From the NCBI GenBank assembly GCA_900617975.1, contig UZAE01000736.1, positions 1-18,939 on the forward strand: a stretch of 18,939 nucleotides of DNA, read 5' to 3'. The notes beneath the pieces are model-generated. The model was not told where the DNA came from, searched no databases, and saw only the letters and a program-made list of their open reading frames with translations. This DNA is from Rodentolepis nana (Eukaryota; Platyhelminthes; Cestoda; Cyclophyllidea; Hymenolepididae). Below, in pieces: positions 1 through 18,484 of the stretch (its first letter is position 1; every line of letters begins with the position of its first letter). A program made the position numbers and the translations under genes.

Positions 1-224
1 GGGGGGGGGGGGGGGAACAGAAGAGTGTTTTAAAGATGTAAAATGGACAGACAAAAAGGTAGAAAAAGGGTGAGGTGAGCACACTGGAAGTAGTCGAATG
101 TGGTATACAGTGGGGTGGTGGTAGTTTAGGGCCAGAAGTCAACTGTCAGTTAATAGACTTTTTTGCCGTATGAATATACGTTGCCCCGGATGCACCACGT
201 GGAGATAAGTCTATCGCACACCCC
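1..224 (-). mobile_element. rzSINE copy A, cut by window edge
   Basis: Antisense copy of the ribozyme-headed short retroposon. Its 5' end is at 224 (cccc of the antisense strand) and its 3' half runs off the window. The ribozyme region is 153-224: P2 arms ATAGACTT/AAGTCTAT and the P4 hairpin CGTAT-ATTC-ATACG are kept. The P1 3' strand reads GCATCCG instead of the usual GCACCCT, so the G1 wobble pair is lost and one G-C becomes G-U. The window opens with 15 G, an expansion of the C-run in the body of the element, which could be a contig end or a polymerase/assembly artefact. Because of the edge no target-site duplication can be checked. Confidence 0.85.
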
Positions 225-2703: not shown

Positions 2704-3350
2704 TGGGCGTGCGACGGACTTACCTCCACGTGGAGTACCCTGAGCAACTTATATTCATACGACAAAAAGTCTATTAACCGGCAGTTGGCTTCTGACTTCA
2801 AACTACCCTGACCCCACCGCATTTCATATTCGCCCACTTCCACAGTACTCATCTTGCTTTTTCTCTACCTTTGTCTCTGTCTGTCTCTTTTACATCTGTG
2901 AATCATTATTCTGTCCCCCTCTCGACTTTTGCCCCTTAGATGTTCATTTTCCTTTCCCACCCCTTGACTTTCTTCTACTTTGATGGACCTTCCCTCTTCT
3001 ACCCCTCGACTTTCTGCTACTTTGATGCACCTTCCCTCAACCCTTGGACTTTCTGCTACTTTGATGAACCTTCCTTCTGTGAAGGCCTGTCTCTTTTACG
3101 TCTGTGAATCATTATTCTGTCCCCCTCTCTCGACTTTTTGCCACTTTGGTGTTCCTCTTCCTTTCTGTATGTATGACTTTTTGCCACTTTGGTGTTCCTC
3201 ATCCTTTCTGTGAAGGATTTTTGCCACTTTGATGTTCATCTTCCTTTCTGTGAAGCGCCCCTTAGATGTTCCTCCTCCTCTCTGTGAAGCCCGAAGTCAG
3301 CTAAAGGGTTAATGATAAATACCAAAACGCCTACCATTTGAGCTAAATAA
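2704..3350 (+). mobile_element. rzSINE copy E, expanded and decayed
   Basis: Sense copy bounded by 13-bp target-site duplications ACTTTTCAAATGT (2691-2703) and ACTTTCCAAATGT (3351-3363). At about 647 bp it is twice the usual length because its body is tandemly expanded (2881-3290). The ribozyme part (2704-2774) is damaged: the first base is T, the P1 3' strand reads GTACCCT, the next strand reads GAGCAAC, the P2 5' arm is ACGGACTT, and P4 is broken. The catalytic-strand C before the A-run remains. This is an old insertion. The open frame at 2980-3213 is only the repeat being read through and is not a gene. Confidence 0.9.
2881..3290 (+). repeat. tandem expansion in the body of copy E
   Basis: A unit of about 40 bp containing ACTTTGATG (or ACTTTGGTG) with a following CCTTCC-type stretch recurs with anchors near 2977, 3019, 3058, 3143, 3186 and 3226. 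A larger block starting CTGTCTCTTTTAC is present at 2881 and again at 3087, an offset of 206 bp. Other copies hold one such unit, so the array grew inside this insertion or its parent. Confidence 0.8.
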
Positions 3351-4710: not shown

Positions 4711-4862
4711 GGGGTGTGCGATAAACTTACCATCACGTGGTGCACCCTGAACAATGTATTCTCATACGGCAAAAAGTCTATTAACTGACAGTTGACTTCT
4801 GACTTACAACTGGCTAATGATAACCACCAAGACGCCTGCCATTTAATATAAATAAATAAATA
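4711..4862 (+). mobile_element. rzSINE copy F, mini version
   Basis: Sense copy of only about 150 bp, bounded by 14-bp duplications AATATTTACATGTT (4697-4710) and AATATTCACATGTT (4863-4876). The ribozyme head (4711-4781) runs into GACTTCTGACTTACAACT and then straight into GGCTAATGATAACC of the LINE-like tail, so the whole body is deleted. P1 (GGGGTGT/GCACCCT) is intact and P2 has one mismatch. The strand GAACAA replaces GGGCAA, P4 has become TGTAT-TCTC-ATACG with one G-U closing pair, and L3 is altered to ATCACGT. The junction could be a reverse-transcription jump at the CAACT-like microhomology. Confidence 0.9.
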
Positions 4863-4991: not shown

Positions 4992-6542
4992 TCAAACATT
5001 TATTCGTTCAAGAATAGCAGAAAATAAAAATAAGATGGCACAAATTAAGGGAGAGGACTTTCTGAGTTCACCACCATCTGAGGGTTCTTCACTGGTTGAT
5101 TTCATAACGAACCTATTTGCAGTAGGGAGGTAGTTAGTAGAGATGTGGTTTTGATTCGGTTGGCATCTTTGTCGCAGCTTCCTCAGAAAATCGGAGACAT
5201 TTATCCACTTTCCCAACTCAATCCTCTCATCAGAGGAACGTGTCTGTAATACCTCGGCGCATTGTATCTTTCCATCGAAATAAGGATTCTGGGCTTTCAA
5301 CCAGGAGAAAGTGTTGTACACCAAGCATCCGCATTCCACAAGGGAGAGCCGAATAAAGTGGAATTTATCTGGCCTACGAAGGGATTTGAAAGGGTTGTCT
5401 AGAAGAATCACCATTCCTGTGGGTTTTCTTCCTCCATAGGTTTCTCCGACCCGAAGGCTCCTGAGATGTGAGAACCGACCCATTGCATCACCATCTATGT
5501 GGAGAAGGGGATAGTGATTCAAGGAAAGGTCGGTTGTATTCAGAGTCATTTTTGGCAAGAGGGAGCTGAGTTTGGTGAAAGATGCAGATTGAACGTAAAT
5601 TTCAACTGTCTGATTATCATTAGAAGTATGCGGATGACATGAAGCGCATCTCCAAAGACTAGGACAAGTCAGCGGGCCTACAGAAGGATTTATAAGTGTA
5701 ATATGCGTTAGATTTGTATTTCCTAAGTCCACACACTGAAAGAAATGAGATGCAGAAGTAAATGGACCAAGATCTTCAACCATAAGAATTATCTCCTTTA
5801 AACCGGACAAATTTAGTGGGGTTTTAACAGGTAGGAAGCTTTCTTCTAATTCTGCATTTGGAGTTACAAAGAGGGTCCTAAGATGCGGCAGATTAGAAGC
5901 ACTAGATATCGGAAATCCTAAACCATTTTCGGTATATTCCAACTTTTGCAAATGAGGAACAGTGAAGAACAACGCGTTTTTAGTTTCACTCGACCCTGTA
6001 ATGTAGGATGGTACTCTAGCACATTGAAAAGACAGATCTTCTAATATTGGAGCCAAAATATTCCCTTGAAATAGATCACAGCACAATTCTTTTATTGCTA
6101 ATTTATTCATATTCGGTAGAATGGTTTGTCTTTCGGCTTTCCAAGATATTTGTTCCTCATCCTTATGATTATCCTGGGCGGCCATAATTATTAGCTGATC
6201 TAATTTGGTGATCGACGGAAGCTTGGAGAAAGGACACGAAACTCCGGTAAAATGAAGCTCTTGAAGGTTAGTAAAATTTTGGAAAACGTCAACGGCTACA
6301 TCTGTATTACAATCTAAATTTGTTTGTCTTACCACAAGACCCGTTATTCGGCCGAGATCTGTTCCTTTTGGCAGGAGATCTAGAATTGCTTCGAAGCAAT
6401 CAAGGTAGCATATTAGACTTTCCTTATGCTCTAATTCACAAAACCGGTCCAATTCAATAAATGTCTCTGAAGAGGGGAAATATAATAGAAGGAGGAGGGA
6501 GAGGGCCGTTAGGAGTCCACTTAGACATCTTCCAATGTACAT
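4992..6542 (-). CDS. secreted or GPI-anchored leucine-rich-repeat protein
   Basis: Intact single-exon ORF of 516 residues. The N-terminus is a signal peptide (hydrophobic stretch about residues 8-22), placing the protein in the secretory pathway. The middle has irregular leucine-rich repeats, for example LPHLRTLFV, LSGLKEIILM and FSHLRSLRV, with several N-glycosylation sequons (NFT, NLS, NLT, NQT, NTT, NVS). Residues about 399-460 look like a C-terminal LRR cap with cysteines at about 404, 406, 428 and 460. A polar, disulfide-free linker follows, then a hydrophobic end (about 498-511) with a short tail, which suits a GPI signal or a single membrane anchor. LRR ectodomains of this kind usually bind ligands or other cell-surface proteins; the ligand here is unknown. 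The start chosen is the ATG directly before the signal peptide. AATAAA overlaps the last codons. It lacks introns, unlike the Argonaute locus, so a retrogene origin is possible. Confidence 0.85.
   Translation of the reverse strand: MYIGRCLSGLLTALSLLLLLYFPSSETFIELDRFCELEHKESLICYLDCFEAILDLLPKGTDLGRITGLVVRQTNLDCNTDVAVDVFQNFTNLQELHFTGVSCPFSKLPSITKLDQLIIMAAQDNHKDEEQISWKAERQTILPNMNKLAIKELCCDLFQGNILAPILEDLSFQCARVPSYITGSSETKNALFFTVPHLQKLEYTENGLGFPISSASNLPHLRTLFVTPNAELEESFLPVKTPLNLSGLKEIILMVEDLGPFTSASHFFQCVDLGNTNLTHITLINPSVGPLTCPSLWRCASCHPHTSNDNQTVEIYVQSASFTKLSSLLPKMTLNTTDLSLNHYPLLHIDGDAMGRFSHLRSLRVGETYGGRKPTGMVILLDNPFKSLRRPDKFHFIRLSLVECGCLVYNTFSWLKAQNPYFDGKIQCAEVLQTRSSDERIELGKWINVSDFLRKLRQRCQPNQNHISTNYLPTANRFVMKSTSEEPSDGGELRKSSPLICAILFLFSAILERINV
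4999..5004 (-). promoter_or_regulatory. polyadenylation signal overlapping the LRR stop region
   Basis: AATAAA on the minus strand spans the codons for Ile-Asn just before Val and the TGA stop (4992-4994). If used, the 3' untranslated region would be only about 10-25 nt. No other AATAAA stands close downstream; the next on this strand lies within rzSINE copy F. Confidence 0.5.
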
Positions 6543-7095: not shown

Positions 7096-7123
7096 ATCAG
7101 TAAAAAGTGTTGTAAACGAATAT

Positions 7124-7434
7124 TATTATTATTATGTCAAATGGCAGGCGTTTTGATTGTTATCATTAGCCCTTTAGTTGACTTCAGTCTTTACAGAGGG
7201 GAAGGAACATCAAAGTGTAAAAAATTCAAGAGGGGGGGGGGGAACAGAAGAGTGTATCAAAGACAAAAGTAGATAAGGTGGGAAAAAGGTGGGATGAGTA
7301 CTGTGAAGTTGTCGAATATGACATACAGTGGAGTCATGGCAGTTTGAAGTCAACTGCCAGGTAATAGACTTTTTGCCGTATGAGTATACGTTGCCCAGGG
7401 TGCACCACGTGGAGGTAAGTCTATCACACACCCC
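7124..7434 (-). mobile_element. rzSINE copy H, youngest-looking
   Basis: Full-length antisense copy bounded by a perfect 14-bp duplication TTGTAAACGAATAT (7110-7123 and 7435-7448). In sense order it has the intact ribozyme (7364-7434), a shortened AGTTGACTTC region, a pyrimidine-rich body with an 11-C run (G at 7232-7242), the LINE-like 3' end and an (AAT)n tail instead of (AAAT)n. The undamaged duplication and ribozyme suggest recent insertion. It sits only 19 bp beyond fragment G, so two independent insertions hit nearly the same spot. Confidence 0.93.
7364..7434 (-). ncRNA. HDV-like ribozyme of copy H, intact fold
   Basis: Sense order: GGGGTGT (P1 5'), GTG, ATAGACTT (P2 5'), ACC-TCCACGT-GGT (P3 with L3), GCACCCT (P1 3'), GGGCAA, CGTAT-ACTC-ATACG (P4), GCAAA with the putative catalytic C, AAGTCTAT (P2 3'). 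P1 is 7 bp and starts with a G-U wobble. The CC of L3 can pair with GG after P1 to make P1.1. This is the strand order of HDV-like ribozymes, which cleave before the first base of P1. That base is the first base after the target-site duplication. Confidence 0.85.
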
Positions 7435-7687
7435 TTGTAAACGAATATAAAAATATGAGAATCAAAACGAAGGCAATTAAGTTCGGCATAAGGAGAGTTA
7501 ACCTACTTGAATTCTAGGGCATTATTCTATCATATGCTCATGATGAGACAGCCTTCGGTCAACCTGGTCTGATCAGAATTATCCTTTTGGGACAATTTTA
7601 CCTTATCAGTTTCCCAACTTTTTCCCTGTCCATGTAATGTGAAGTCCTTAATCAACCCAATTACCCATACTGTATATTTACCTAAGT

Positions 7688-8759: not shown

Positions 8760-9085
8760 ATATTTATTTATTTCAAATGGCAGGCATTTTGATAGTTATT
8801 ATTAGCCCTTTAGTTGACATCGAGCTTCACAGAAGGGAGGAACATTAAAGTGAGAAAAATTCGACAGGGAGAAATAAAAGCGATTCACAGATGTACCAGA
8901 CAGACAAACAGACACAAAGGCAGAGAAAAGGCTAGATGAGTACTGTGGAAGGGGTCGAATATGACATACATTGGGATCATGGCAGTTTGAAGTAAGAAAT
9001 CAACTGCCAGTTAATAGACTTTTTTGCCGTATGAGTATACGTTGCCCAGGGTGCACCACGTGGAGGTAAGTCTATCGCACACCCC
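8760..9085 (-). mobile_element. rzSINE copy J
   Basis: Antisense full-length copy: tail TATTTATTTATTTC at the left, 5' end at 9085. The ribozyme segment matches the window consensus without change. The body holds the (AGAC)n-type stretch seen in most copies when read antisense. No target-site duplication is visible, which is unusual for such an intact copy; the flank may have mutated or been deleted. The left limit is therefore approximate. Confidence 0.9.
9014..9085 (-). ncRNA. HDV-like ribozyme of copy J, intact fold
   Basis: All pairing elements are present: P1 GGGGTGT/GCACCCT, P2 ATAGACTT/AAGTCTAT, P3 ACC/GGT closing TCCACGT, GGGCAA after P1, P4 CGTAT/ATACG with loop ACTC, and catalytic strand GCAAAA. 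It is identical to the segment of copy K, so this is probably the ancestral sequence. Confidence 0.85.
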
Positions 9086-9810: not shown

Positions 9811-10100
9811 TTATTTATTTCAAATGGCAGGCGTTTTGAAAGATATCATTAGCCATTTAGCTGGCTTCGGGCTTCACAGGGGGGAGAACAGAAGAGCGAT
9901 TCACAGTTGTAAAAGAGATAGACGGACACAAAGGTAGAGAAAAAGGTAAGGGGAATACTGTGGAAGGTGTCGAATATGACAACCAGGGGAGTCGTGGTAG
10001 TTAGAAGCCAGAAGTCAATTGCCGGTTAATAGACTTTTTTGCCGTATGAGTATACGTTGCCCAGGGTGCACCACGTGGAGGTAAGTCTATCGCACACCCC
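9811..10100 (-). mobile_element. rzSINE copy K, just upstream of the Argonaute locus
   Basis: Antisense full-length copy with perfect 11-bp duplications CTGATGTAAGT (9800-9810 and 10101-10111) and tail AAATAAATAAA. The ribozyme is intact. It lies 108 bp before the first recognised Argonaute codon. Read on the plus strand, the ribozyme complement supplies a consensus splice donor (GGAG|GTAAGT, intron start 10081). An acceptor-like TTAATTACAG ends at 10177, so the copy could have contributed a 5' exon or disturbed the original promoter. That is inference. Confidence 0.92.
10029..10100 (-). ncRNA. HDV-like ribozyme of copy K, intact fold
   Basis: Same sequence and pairing as in copy J: 7-bp P1 with G1-U, 8-bp P2, 3-bp P3, L3 TCCACGT, GGGCAA, 5-bp P4 and GCAAAA. 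The predicted cleavage site is between 10101 and 10100 on the minus strand, which is the element/duplication boundary. Confidence 0.85.
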
Positions 10101-10208: not shown

Positions 10209-13200
10209 ATGTTAACACCGAGGCCTAGAATCGGCACAGTCGGCGAAGCGGTCATGGTTGAAGTCAATTGTTGGGACTTCGAAGTAGCTGACGTTCAAAT
10301 CCACCGATATGACATTCAACCAATGCAACCGCAAGAGGTGACGGAAAATGGGATTAACCAGTTGAAATTGCATGAAAAATTCTTGCTCAAGTACATGAAA
10401 TTTGTTTACAATTTGTATGTTCCCAAAACTATCTTTATTTAACGCCTTGGTGCTCATGCTTATTAATCACAGCTCGAATCTTTCCACTTTTCAGGATGGA
10501 TGATGACGTGTTTTCAGATGCAAATCGATTCTGCTTTTCACTGGAACCCCTTGAAAGAAAATTCACTCTCTCAGAACCACAATATTTAGATGTGTATGAA
10601 GGTGAAAGAAAATTGAGATTAAAATATGTTATTAAGAAATTGAGAACAATATCAGCCCAATCTATTAAACAGTACATGGAGAATCCTAATTCAATGAGAG
10701 AGGAAACTCCTCAGAAAGCAATCAATATGCTAGACAATCTTTTCCGTTGGGTTAATAGAAAAATCTTTGAAATTTTCCTGAATGGGGTGTATTTAAGAGA
10801 TCCTGAAAAGATATGTTCAAATGGCCTTTACAGCATTTATAGGGGTCACTTGTTCAGTGTTCGACCACAGTGGAAGTTATGAATTAATATCGATTTGGTG
10901 AGAAAGAGAAACACTACCACCCAAAATGTGATTAAATCGATTAGAATTACTGGAAATCTGATTGATGTGCTGTATGAAAAGTACAGCCAGAGCATGTATG
11001 ATAGGTCAAAATGGGAAAAAATCAGTACTGAAATTGCTTCTCTTAAGGCTGAAGCTAGCCACTACAGAAATTCCGGTGGCATTTTTGAACGAATTAACGC
11101 ATGAATCTACATCATTCGCGTGACTAAAAGTCTTCTTCCTGTAGATACGGGCAAATCCTTCTCAAAGGTATTAACAATGTTTAGCTTATCGGATAAAACA
11201 GCGGATGAGATCATTATCAAAGCATTTGATATGTCTGTAACAGAATATTTTACAAGGAAGTATGGCATAGTTTTGAAGTATCCTAATCTCCCTTGTGTTC
11301 GGGTAAGCTAAATAAATGTTAGTCCAATCAATCAACCTGTCTCTAGATCGAGAAAAACAGAGATGAGTTTATGCCAATGGAATTGCTAACAGTCTTGCCA
11401 TTTCAAAAAGCACGAGAAGATAAAAGACGTATTGCCTCTGAGGTTACTCGCATAGCTGCAGTTAAACCCTCAGAACGATTTAGGGATTTGGAGAGGATGG
11501 TAAAGCAAGTTATGTCATTGTAAGTAACCACCTTTACTTCGTTTACTTGGACTGTTCCTTATGGGGACTGTGTATGAGATTTCGCTCTACTCTAGGCGCA
11601 GTTCGTTGATATCAAAATTGAATTTAAAGTTCACAGACCCGAAGCCAGTTCGAGTTGTGGCTCGAGAATTGCCCCAACCAAATTCTCGATTTTTTAATGG
11701 CACACAAGAGATGAAACGAGGCTCGTGGAGTCATGAACCCTTCCTTGAATCTGCCTCTACTTTCCTTAAATGGGTCATTGTTGTTTTGCATCCGTTCAAG
11801 GTAAGATATTCTCTTATCATGTACTGATTCTCGCATCTTGAATCGCATGTTGAACTACATTCTGTCAAATTTTAGATTAGGAATGTTGATTGGCTTCGAA
11901 AAGAGCTTCCAATGGCTGCCCAAAAGTCTGGACTTGAAATGGATAGGAATTCAGAAGTAGTTAGGTTATTTGTAGCGGAATTACCCTCTTTGTTAGAAAT
12001 GCTTAGTCGAAAGGTTTTTTTCGCATCTTTATTGAAGCGCTTTCAATTCATTGCATTAATTTAGGGTGTACATTTAGCCTTTGTATTTTATCAGACACGA
12101 AAAGCTATTCAGAAATCAACCGTGCAAGTGAGCTGAATAAATTTATGGTGACCCAGTGTGTCAAGGATGTGAATATTAAAAAAACGAGGCTTTATGGGTT
12201 AGGTAGTCATATCTCGATAAGAAAAGCGTATTGGGATAATTTTTGCAACAATGTGTTTTCACATTTCGGATAACTTGTTGCTGAAAATTAATGGAAAGTT
12301 GGGAGGCTCGAATTGGCAAGTCAGTCAATTATCAGATTGGTGGGGAAAGGAGATCATCATGGTTGCCGGTGCTGACGTAACACATCCAACTTCTAAAAAC
12401 GGAGGCCTTCGAAAATCTGTTGCAGCAGTTGTGGCCTCGATTTCTCCAGACCTGGTGAAGTATGCTGCAGTGGTGAGACAACAGGAACACAAATTGGCCA
12501 GTGAGTGCATAAATGGAATGAAGGACATATTTACTGACCTTTTGGATGTAAAAAGAGCAATTTTGAATTGCATATACTGTGTAGACTTTTGGAAAGCATA
12601 ATAATGGCAGACTTCCTACGAAAATAATAGTCTATCGAGATGGTGTTCCATAGGGACAGTTCTATCAAGTGCTGGAGTCAGAGCTTGGAGATATTCAAGA
12701 AGCTTGTACTGATATTCGACCTGGATATGAACCTGGAATCACCTTTATTGTTGTGCAAAAGCATCATCACATTCGTTCCACTCCTATTTCTGAGAAGTAA
12801 GTGATTTATTTCTTAATTCTGAATAAAATAGCTTGATACCTGAGTGTGTTTGTGTTGAAATCGTGCTAAGTTTAATTCAAACACTGATGAATGACTTTTC
12901 AGAGCTTATTGAAGAGGTTCCAACTGTTTTATTAAGGGAATTTTTAAAAGAGGTGCCTAATTGAACTAGTTTGATCGGTGCAAGTTCGATTTATTGTTGC
13001 ATATTCAACGAATTCAACCACTTATTGGATGAGCAAAAGAGTTTAGAAGAGGGGGTGATGAAACCTGAACTGCAAAAGTTTTACTAAAGTTTAAGCTTCG
13101 GAATTATTAGGTTTTGCACATTTTCGTGAAGTATATAGTTTTCTTTTTAATCTCCCAATAATCGAATTTCAATAACCCACACTCATACCTATGTCACTTC

Positions 13201-14196
13201 AATTTATTTGTAACATCTATCAACCGAAAGCCAGTAATTGAGAAAGTGCGATCTCTATCTTAGCTACAAGCAACTCGATCATTTTGAAAGGCGTTCGGCT
13301 TGTAAATTTGTGCAGTTAACGACTTTTCGTCTAACAGATTTCTGACTATTAAGAAATGTTTAAAGCTAAACATTTTAACCCATTTGGATGTTTGAATATA
13401 AGCACCTGCCAATAGACTGAAAGGTGGAATATAAATCTTCTCCAATCAAAAGTTTATTAATATCAAAGAATTTTGGTAAAAATGGCCGCAATTGCATAAC
13501 AGTGAATCTTATAAGTGGTTAAGTTAGAAAAGAATATATTGGATCTAAAGGTTAATGTATCTTCCGATTTCGAATGCTTATTGTAAAATTATTGGTTAAG
13601 CATATCTATTTCACAGAGCTTAGCTTTATTTTAATTCTTGTGAACACATGCTTCATAGAAAAGGTCGTATTCAGTTACTTGAGTGTCACAGCCTTTCACA
13701 GCCCTCCAATTTTAGAACAATAAATTAGTATTTCCAAGATTTGAAGACATATCATTTGTGCTTAAGCAATAATGCATTTGATTAACTGAAATATTTAACT
13801 CGTTTTTTTATTTTTAGATCACAAAATATCTCTCCAGGAACAGTAGTGGACTCAGAGATCACTCACAACAGAGAATTTGACTTCTACCTTTGCTCGCATA
13901 AAGCTATTCAAGGCACTTCAAAGCCGGCTCATTACACTGTACTTTATGATGATAACGACTGGGATTCAGACGATCTCCAATTGTTCACTTACTTCTTGTG
14001 CCGTGCTTCTATGCGTTCCAATCGAACCATTTCCTACCCTACGCCGACCTACTATGCACATTTGGCGGCTTTCCGAGGTAGAAGTTGGCTCAAAGATGCC
14101 CTGAATCCTTCGGCTTTTCTGAAAAATAGCAAGTTTGCAATTGTCGAAGGACAAAAAGACTTGATGTTCTTTCTGAAGTCTCTTTACTTAGATTAA
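10209..14196 (+). pseudogene. Argonaute-family gene, eight exons, disabled
   Basis: Argonautes bind small RNAs and silence or slice targets. Exons: 10209-10414, 10495-11302, 11347-11519, 11596-11800, 11876-12013, 12065-12547, 12585-12796, 13818-14196. Their GT-AG introns are 80, 44, 76, 75, 51, 37 and 1021 nt, and phases agree. Domain order is complete: N (TPRPRIGTVG), linker, PAZ (exon 2, ending YPNLPCVR), MID (RNVDWLRKEL, MVTQCVKDVN) and PIWI ([39 protein letters not shown]). Lesions: TGA at 10880-10882 after SVRPQWKL, TGA at 11102-11104, TAG at 12651-12653 inside the DGV-GQF motif, a one-base loss near 12087, and a second frame break with about 25 unexplained codons between 12160 and 12265. 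Of the catalytic tetrad, Asp (12374), Asp (12639) and His (14059) remain; the Glu position reads Ala (12497). The introns show it is a decayed gene copy, not a processed one. Sequencing error could explain single lesions, hardly all five. An upstream exon is possible (acceptor ending 10177). Confidence 0.88.
12827..13083 (+). pseudogene. coding-like relic inside the last Argonaute intron
   Basis: One frame stays open for about 45 codons, meets a single TGA at 12962-12964, and continues for about 40 more to TAA at 13082-13084. The amino-acid content is protein-like (for example LIQTLMNDFSELIEEVP and FNHLLDEQKSLEEGV), alpha-helical and leucine-rich. The family was not recognised and it does not resemble Argonaute. 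It may be an exon or fragment of another gene captured in the only long intron (1021 nt) of the locus. It could also be chance. Confidence 0.3.
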
Positions 14197-16705: not shown

Positions 16706-17030
16706 GGGGTGTGTGATAGACTTACCTCCATGTGATGCACCCTGGGAAACGTATTCTCATACGGCAAAAGAGTCTATTAACCAACAGTTGACTTCTGACT
16801 TCAGACTACCATCACCCCACTGTATATCGTATTCAACCACTTTCACAGTACTCATCTCACCTTTTCTCTGCCTTTGTGTCTCTCTGTCTCTTTTAAATCT
16901 GCTAATCATTATTTTGTCCCAACTATCGGCTTTTTTGTCACTTTGATGTTCCTTCCCCTCTTTGAAACCTGAAGTCAACTAAAGAGCTAATGACAGCTAT
17001 CAAAACGCCAGCCATTTGATATAAATAAAA
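16706..17030 (+). mobile_element. rzSINE copy L
   Basis: Sense full-length copy bounded by 11-bp duplications TTTTCGAGCTT (16695-16705) and TTTTCGGGCTT (17031-17041), one mismatch. The ribozyme segment (16706-16777) keeps P1 with one change in the neighbouring P3 (ACC/GAT), and P4 as CGTAT-TCTC-ATACG, a loop-only change. P2 is shortened to 7 bp, and the P1.1 strand is GGGAAA instead of GGGCAA. Body and LINE-like tail (GCCAGCCATTTGATATAAAT) are complete. The open frames on both strands here are read-through of the repeat. Confidence 0.92.
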
Positions 17031-17258: not shown

Positions 17259-17768
17259 ACTGTGGCATTAAAGACAATGAGCTTGCTGACGCACTTGCTA
17301 AGAAGGGGCATAAACCGGTCGATGTCTTTCCACACAATGAAGGCCTTAATCAGGAGAGAATTCAAGACCTCAAGGTGAAACGAACTTAAAGCTCGAACAA
17401 AGGAGAAAAAGAGGACAGCGACACTCTCCGACATAGCCGACTGGCAAAGAATCGAGGCCGTTGCTGAGTTTAGACTACGTACCGGACACGATTGCTAGGC
17501 AAAACATCTTCACAGATTGGGAGTATACACTCAACCCACATGCCCTCTATGTAACCTGCAGGAGGAAACGGACAAGACCCACCTGATTCGGTGTCCAGCC
17601 CTAAAGACAACGACGGAAACTCAGAGATACTGGGAAGCAGAAGACAGCTAATGAATTGCTATTAATTAACTGTTATTTATGTACCTCCCACCCATGGGGA
17701 AGCTGAAGTCAAAGTTTAAGGGCTAATGATAACCATCATTAAGCCTGCCATTTGAAATAATAATACTT
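17259..17768 (+). mobile_element. 5'-truncated LINE (non-LTR retrotransposon) 3' end
   Basis: The insertion is bounded by 11-bp duplications ATTCTGAAGTC (17248-17258) and ATTTTGAAGTC (17769-17779). It encodes only the C-terminal part of the polymerase ORF: the end of an RNase H domain (CGIKDNELADALAKKG), then after a one-base frameshift near 17387 the segment ADWQRIEAVAEFRLRTGHD and a zinc-finger-like CPLCNLQEETDKTHLIRC. Stop codons are TAG at 17496-17498 (inside the domain, a decay mutation) and the normal TAA at 17649-17651. The 3' untranslated region ends AAATAATAATA. RNase H plus this C-terminal finger fits I/R1/Jockey-type LINEs; the clade was not settled. The element itself is dead, but its family is the likely helper of the rzSINEs. 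Confidence 0.9.
17699..17768 (+). repeat. 3' end shared by LINE and rzSINE
   Basis: The last ~65 bp of the LINE read GAAGCTGAAGTCAAAG, then AAGGGCTAATGATAACCATC, then AAGCCTGCCATTTGAAATAA. The same order with few changes ends every rzSINE with an intact tail, for example copy L (16955-17030) and copy H in antisense. LINE reverse transcriptases of the stringent type recognise the 3' end of their RNA, so a shared 3' end is the known mark of a SINE mobilised by that LINE. Confidence 0.9.
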
Positions 17769-18071: not shown

Positions 18072-18484
18072 TTTATTTATATCAAATGGCAGGCATTTTG
18101 AAAGTTATCATTAGCCCTGGAGCTGACTTCGGGGTTTCACAGAGAGAAGGAACATCAAAGTGACATAAAAGTTGAGATGGGAGACAGAATAATGATTCAC
18201 AGAGGTTATAGAGACAGACAGACAGATACAAAGGCTTAAAAAGGTAAGATGAGTACCGTAGAAGGGGTCGAATATGACAAATAGTCGGGCCATAGAAGTT
18301 TGAAGTAAGAAGTCAACTGCCGATTGATAGACTTTTTTGCCGTATAAGTATACGTTGCCCAGGGTGCACCACGTGGAGGTAAGTATATTTTGCACTCACA
18401 GCCGGCAAAGGGGCTCAGCCGGGATTTGAACCCGGGACCTCGCGCACCCGAAGCGCGAATCATACCCCTAGACCACTGAGCCCC
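18072..18484 (-). mobile_element. rzSINE copy M with a tRNA-Pro head
   Basis: Antisense insertion bounded by perfect 13-bp duplications GATGAAAAATGTA (18059-18071 and 18485-18497). In sense order it begins GG plus a complete tRNA-Pro(CGG). Then comes a short linker (CTTTGCCGGCTGTGAGTGC), then the rzSINE from ATACTTACCTCCACG to the LINE-like tail. The 5' strand of ribozyme P1 and part of P2 are replaced (GTGAGTGCAAAATATAC stands where others have GGGGTGTGCGATAGAC), while P3, L3, P1 3' strand, P4 and the catalytic strand remain. Because the duplications lie outside the tRNA, tRNA and SINE entered as one molecule. The tRNA would give this copy an internal Pol III promoter that the others lack. 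Confidence 0.9.
18411..18482 (-). tRNA. tRNA-Pro (anticodon CGG), part of retroposon copy M
   Basis: A 72-nt cloverleaf: acceptor GGCTCAG/CTGAGCC with discriminator C, D-stem GTC/GAT, anticodon arm CGCGC-TTCGGGT-GCGCG, variable loop AGGTC, T-arm CCGGG-TTCAAAT-CCCGG. All stems pair. Box A (TGGTCTAGGGG) and box B (GGTTCAAATCC) are intact, no intron is present and CCA is not encoded. Only a TTT follows, so a strong Pol III terminator is missing and transcripts could run on into the SINE. It is very close to the usual animal tRNA-Pro. It may still be transcribed, but its place inside target-site duplications marks it as a retroposon head rather than a resident gene. Confidence 0.93.

Follow-up and report, generated by a model that had tools for sequence, protein, structure and literature searches.

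The window, that is, the whole stretch of DNA that was analyzed, comprises the 18,939 nucleotides of contig UZAE01000736.1 of Rodentolepis nana (C736 in our genome scan). It holds a complete copy of a short retroelement that is flanked by a perfect target-site duplication and that is better named a SIDE, for reasons given below. Eleven copies bearing the head of this element were mapped in the window by nhmmer, and a fragment of the partner LINE is present as well. RF02682 and RF00094 below are Rfam families, and the RF02682 cut-off is 44 bits.

7124-7434, minus strand: complete SIDE copy of 311 nt, the focal copy, with ribozyme, LINE 5′ UTR-like stretch, CT-rich middle, LINE-like 3′ end and (AAT)n tail
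7364-7434, minus strand: HDV-like ribozyme at the 5′ end of this copy; RF02682 41.0 bits, E 1.1e-4; strict descriptor match; G1 is 7434, and the predicted cut is just 5′ of G1
7435-7448: target-site duplication, 5′ side, adjoining G1; 14/14 identical to 7110-7123
7110-7123: target-site duplication, 3′ side, adjoining the tail; partner of 7435-7448
149-224, minus strand: ribozyme copy, SIDE type; RF02682 34.3 bits
319-394, minus strand: ribozyme copy, SIDE type; RF02682 37.1 bits
944-1019, plus strand: ribozyme copy, SIDE type, with body and ribozyme partly duplicated downstream; RF02682 38.1 bits; strict descriptor match
2704-2779, plus strand: decayed ribozyme copy, mapped by nhmmer; no RF02682 match
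4711-4786, plus strand: ribozyme copy of a SIDE without most of its middle (judged by eye); RF02682 24.7 bits
7688-7763, plus strand: ribozyme copy, SIDE type; RF02682 34.6 bits; duplication score 11, offset 0
9010-9085, minus strand: ribozyme copy, SIDE type (9014-9085 is identical to the 72-nt ribozyme query); RF02682 44.5 bits, above the cut-off; strict descriptor match; no duplication found
10025-10100, minus strand: ribozyme copy, SIDE type (10029-10100 is identical to the 72-nt ribozyme query); RF02682 44.5 bits, above the cut-off; strict descriptor match; duplication score 11, offset 0
16706-16781, plus strand: ribozyme copy whose element extends to about 17031; RF00094 31.0 bits, RF02682 27.9 bits; duplication score only 8
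17427-17765, plus strand: 3′ fragment of the partner LINE (repeat family D6) with the C-terminal coding part, the 3′ UTR and, by tail alignment, the tail shared with the SIDE; 17427-17645 served as a search query
18323-18398, minus strand: ribozyme copy with its first 10 nt altered, beside tRNA-Pro; RF02682 49.4 bits, above the cut-off; no duplication found

A tRNA-Pro gene (cgg) at 18398-18482 on the minus strand ends about 12 bases before the SIDE copy with the altered head, and no CCA was seen by eye at this junction (window 18398-18482). R2 is reported to jump onto tRNA templates (available excerpts of PMC3414825); a chance neighbourhood is as likely here as an R2-like template jump. Elsewhere in the window, a single open frame at 4992-6542 on the minus strand (516 aa) is 80% identical to an LRRCT domain-containing protein of Hymenolepis diminuta, and 10240-14196 on the plus strand looks by eye like an Argonaute-like gene with short introns.

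Fold and conservation of the ribozyme

An earlier note on this DNA had listed the strands of an HDV-like ribozyme in the head of the element. Direct reading of 7434-7364 on the minus strand recovered these strands in the claimed order. They pair as P1 (7 bp, with a G1-U wobble), P2 (8 bp), P3 (3 bp), P1.1 (CC/GG) and P4 (CGTAT/ATACG), and a C is located in the strand joining P4 to P2. The note had proposed covariance-model and motif-descriptor searches, and both agree with the fold. Rfam cmscan matched RF02682 in ten of the 11 head-bearing window copies (24.7-49.4 bits), three of them above the cut-off; the focal copy, at 41.0 bits, is below it. Eight window copies matched RF00094. The strict descriptor, which was composed after the element had been seen, requires standard pairs throughout P1, P2, P3 and P4, CC in L3, GG after P1 and the joining-strand C. 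It matched four times in the window, at 944 on the plus strand and at 7434, 9085 and 10100 on the minus strand, and gave no match on either strand of 40 first-order Markov windows of like make-up. The latter result led us to reject a chance fold as the source of the motif, and the claimed HDV-like topology and motif set are thus borne out: the nested double pseudoknot of P1, P2, P3, P1.1 and P4 is present, as judged by the descriptor and by pair counts. Compared with RF02682 and RF00094, the element has the topology, the core letters and the catalytic C in common, whereas its P4 is short (4-5 bp) and its scores are low, with seven of the ten window matches below the RF02682 cut-off and all eight below the 50-bit cut-off of RF00094.

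The catalytic C in the P4-P2 joining strand is kept in 79 of 84 aligned copies. Among copies within the family, 91.2% of pair cells pair, as against 33-48% when the strands are slid. All 25 pairs are kept in 12 of the 84 copies, 11 of which also have the catalytic C, which suggests that many copies are probably dead. Covariation within the family gives no support to the fold because double changes do not exceed shuffles (four double-change pairs versus 3.6 expected by shuffling); the copies are too alike, and many are decayed.

A second comparison is offered by the LINE of the same genome, whose 5′ end carries the same ribozyme. The majority ribozymes of the two types (78 SIDE and 6 LINE alignment rows) have different letters at 5 of 72 positions. 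At position 7, U.G becomes C-G and the P1 pair is retained; another difference disrupts the final pair of P4; and three lie at unpaired positions. Over the next 42 nt, the majorities of 69 SIDE and 24 LINE copies, compared position by position with the downstream pieces unaligned for gaps, are identical at 26 positions, so that the ribozyme is better kept than what follows it (Fisher p 8e-5).

The partner LINE and the ends of the element

LINE loci were retrieved by the coding end of the LINE, and upstream of it, on the same strand, lies the same ribozyme starting at the same G1. This LINE head was found again in 20 stretches retrieved by the LINE-type core. When ten LINE heads were scanned with Rfam, RF02682 was matched at nine (30.0-37.1 bits) and RF00094 at nine (30.9-38.0 bits), in all cases below the cut-offs. 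Thus, the ribozyme that had been ascribed to the short element is indeed there, but it is not peculiar to it; a ribozyme private to the short element is ruled out by these LINE heads. Pieces of the LINE match PF14529 and PF03372 (endonuclease), PF00078 (reverse transcriptase) and PF00075 (RNase H). In six of the seven LINE copies inspected, the ATG that opens the endonuclease frame is at nt 104-105 from G1, and in the seventh it is at 97. Identity of the reverse transcriptase pieces to Rodentolepis nana sequences reaches 88%, which, with the LRRCT match to Hymenolepis diminuta, fits a hymenolepidid tapeworm as the likely host. Beyond tapeworms, the nearest named proteins to those of the LINE bear the annotation transposon BS or X-element. 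The lengths of the LINEs are uncertain because several loci contain single Ns or runs of N. Two LINE copies (L023 and L058) reach the tail motif after about 1.25 kb; both have lost large internal parts and are flanked by target-site duplications, which would fit frequent internal deletion. In other loci, single Ns make assembly error possible. A subfamily of LINE-type ribozymes has the P4 CGTAT-CTTC-GTACG, in which U.G replaces the U-A of the SIDE and the U-U of the commoner LINE (contigs C838, C1248, C1344, C2058, C2229, C2996 and C3017).

The likeness between SIDE and LINE extends beyond the ribozyme. The roughly 35 nt that follow it in the SIDE resemble their LINE counterpart, and the last 75 nt or so of the SIDE align to the LINE 3′ end with a score of 43.5, while the maximum in 500 shuffles was 18.0. 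Between this LINE-like head and tail is a CT-rich middle of about 130 nt. The SIDE therefore looks like a LINE 5′ UTR and a LINE 3′ end placed around a CT-rich middle.

The earlier note had called this a SINE-like family with a ribozyme and without an obvious Pol III promoter. The ribozyme and the lack of an obvious Pol III promoter both hold: a B or A box consensus was found in 0 of 69 copies (a B box occurs in 5% of shuffled copies), and a Pol III SINE was rejected on this ground. The label can be refined. SINEs are characterized by Pol III transcription (available excerpts of PMC3414825) and none is predicted here, so SIDE is preferable as a name; it fits an element whose 5′ ribozyme and 3′ end are both found in a LINE of the same genome.

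The position of the ribozyme in the element was examined with a profile of 5′ ends. We used copies with a recognizable anchor (at most six substitutions in 30 nt), namely 74 of SIDE type and 27 of LINE type, and excluded four untyped rows. Conservation rises at G1 in both types. Position -1 has at most 0.24 bits and no base above 50%, and position +1 has more than 1 bit. G accounts for 78-93% at each of positions +1 to +4, and at least three G are present among the first four bases in 65/74 SIDE-type and 23/27 LINE-type copies. The step is seen equally in 26 SIDE copies taken from the window and from loci retrieved by the LINE coding end. Ten bases upstream of the start, T is preferred (0.3-0.6 bits), which probably reflects the target site. 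A search with the body alone, in the window and L012-L060, gave 43 matches, 32 of which extend back to where the body begins (model position 16 or lower). Thirty of these 32 adjoin a ribozyme, which in 25 begins at model position 4 or lower; such counts are biased, since the loci were chosen by an RF02682 match and the window by the finding itself, while target-site duplications are unbiased in this respect.

The duplications were scored in 67 distinct copies, obtained from 69 full-length SIDE rows after removal of two duplicates. A score of at least 10 was reached by 39/67 copies, as against 0/658 swapped pairs (2/671 in another swap); at a threshold of 9, it was 45/67 as against 10/658. The commonest length is 14, as in the focal copy, whose duplication is perfect and flush with G1. 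The score permitted only offsets of 0 to 3 bases before G1, and within that range 31 of the 39 duplications are flush; three stop one base short of G1, four stop two bases short and one stops three bases short. When exact repeats of at least 9 bases were sought over a wider range, from 12 bases inside to 15 bases outside, 37 turned up. Flush ends number 23; four repeats end one base and one ends two bases inside, and those ending outside do so by one base (3), two (3), three (2) or five bases (1). The remaining 28/67 full-length copies have no duplication scoring 10. LINE copies behave in the same way. Seven were given and six have a tail within reach (L027 does not); five of the six have target-site duplications (L054 has no scoring duplication), four flush with G1 and one a single base off. 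Their lengths are 14, 14, 14 (one mismatch), 13 (one mismatch) and 12, the last ending one base before G1, and duplications of 12-14 in these five copies are thus like those of the SIDE. Most of the copies sampled start where cleavage is predicted. The step in conservation at G1 and the mostly flush duplications confirm that the ribozyme is at the 5′ end of the element, as the note had claimed.

Abundance in the genome and beyond

The genome scanned comprises 107.1 Mb in 4,701 contigs. With RF02682, 61 of 25,212 candidates were scored and 59 matches were obtained, 37 of them above the cut-off; none of 14 control genomes was matched. Scans with RF00094 and RF01788 gave no match at E 0.001 in this genome or in the control genomes. 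A DNA search of the genome with the 75-nt head, by a method that skips very common words, gave 0 matches, and phage records gave no match.

Pattern searches returned far larger numbers, which count matches to a pattern whether or not the copy is full-length. The 34-nt SIDE core with at most 3 mismatches has 13,440 matches (6,560 + 6,880) with 0 for the backward control, and the LINE-type core has 1,371 (737 + 634) with 0 for its control; with 4 differences between the two cores, some sites may be counted twice. The whole 72-nt ribozyme with at most 3 mismatches is matched 3,572 times in its SIDE type (1,794 + 1,778) and 110 times in its LINE type (54 + 56), with 0 for both controls.

A predicted protein of 93 residues in Hymenolepis microstoma reads through such a ribozyme and then through a SIDE-like body (E 1.9e-8; one match among two candidates, with the frame read by eye). 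This suggests that the family is probably older than the species.

Elements of this kind are already known, as R2 SIDEs and as NARTc/SIDER of trypanosomatids. R2 SIDEs, in the rRNA gene loci of Drosophila, consist of a 5′ ribozyme joined to a LINE 3′ end (available excerpts of Eickbush and Eickbush 2012, PMC3414825). As far as these excerpts describe them, they are like the family here in having a 5′ HDV-like ribozyme and a LINE 3′ end and in being non-autonomous and not of Pol III type; in contrast, the family here is dispersed, its core is matched more than ten thousand times, its targets vary and show duplications of about 14 bp, and its partner LINE has an APE-type endonuclease and RNase H. 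NARTc, RIME and SIDER are genome-widespread short partners in trypanosomatids (NARTc/L1Tc, RIME/ingi; available excerpts of PMC4035085). According to the same excerpts, they differ from the present element in that their hosts are protists with large co-transcribed gene clusters, not an animal, and in that Pr77 also acts as a promoter. R4, Dong, Baggins and L1Tc are cut at the 5′ end of the element (available excerpts of PMC3774820), and the LINE here is like them, to that extent, in carrying a ribozyme at its 5′ end with the cut predicted at the first base. In the literature searched, where subscription journals are thinly covered, the papers linking an HDV-like ribozyme with a SINE, as represented by their available parts, were trypanosomatid, R2 and review papers, and no report of a Hymenolepis ribozyme was found. 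What seems to be new is a genome-dispersed animal family that is this numerous and has an RNase H LINE as its partner, in a tapeworm.

Proposed mobilization and its alternatives

From the sequence, we infer a route, in support of the one that the earlier note had suggested, in which transcription comes from outside. A host transcript would run into the element, and the ribozyme would cut the RNA just before G1, freeing the 5′ end of the element. The LINE protein would then recognize the freed RNA through the common tail, and the RNA would be reverse transcribed at the nicked target, that is, by target-primed trans-mobilization. The SIDE itself may have originated by the joining of a LINE 5′ UTR to a LINE 3′ end around the CT-rich middle. 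We consider it highly probable that the SIDE shares its 5′ HDV-like ribozyme with the LINE, that it would release itself from host transcripts by self-cleavage and that it is likely copied by the LINE through the common 3′ end. An element that likely cuts itself out of host transcripts would need no promoter of its own.

The alternative that survives best, although we regard it as unlikely, is that the first 77 nt or so are mainly an internal promoter that starts the RNA at G1, in the manner of Pr77, with the ribozyme a passenger or working alongside. Pr77 of L1Tc is indeed reported as both an internal promoter and an HDV-like ribozyme (available excerpts of PMC4035085), and a start at G1 would likewise yield flush 5′ ends. 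A promoter only would leave unexplained why the double-pseudoknot motif is complete and is matched by two Rfam ribozyme families, why none of 40 random windows contains it, and why the P1 pair is kept by the change from U.G to C-G; the stretch may nevertheless play both roles. It is less likely still that the ribozyme is a relic, once active in the LINE, and that the SIDE spread otherwise, its present copies being inert. Such a history would agree with the mere 11/84 copies that keep all pairs together with the catalytic C, and with double changes that are not above shuffles; but any retroelement is expected to decay once inserted, and both the 3,572 SIDE-type and 110 LINE-type whole ribozymes within 3/72 mismatches and the fact that most duplications found end flush with G1 argue against it. 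A tRNA-derived Pol III SINE whose head is HDV-like by chance is hardly credible: it would account for a short, interspersed element with target-site duplications and a LINE-like tail, one window copy of which adjoins a tRNA-Pro gene, but no B or A box consensus occurs in 69 copies, the head resembles the LINE 5′ end, and the motif has 0 matches in 40 random windows.

SINEs normally get a defined 5′ end from a Pol III promoter. Self-cleavage from host transcripts, if it operates as proposed, suggests a second general solution in animals, in which the ribozyme of a LINE is adopted and any host transcript supplies the RNA. More tentatively, with our judgement leaning slightly to the side of doubt, the family could be a promoterless SINE able to move from wherever it is transcribed, with thousands of intact copies cutting themselves from host pre-mRNAs. 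If this is true, few animal genomes would be so densely stocked with self-cleaving RNAs, and the host's transcripts would be under a constant burden from them. This raises the question of how the host tolerates so many potential transcript cuts. The family also offers thousands of natural ribozyme variants.

Near the 5′ ends of some elements, we also observed the ribozyme core repeated in tandem, about 3 to 7 times and roughly every 38-51 nt. Such arrays are located at L002 2671-2950 (minus strand), in L120, and at C2020:9109-9235, C2883:19810-19936 and C4004:14453-14579. They may have arisen when the reverse transcriptase stuttered or jumped between templates.
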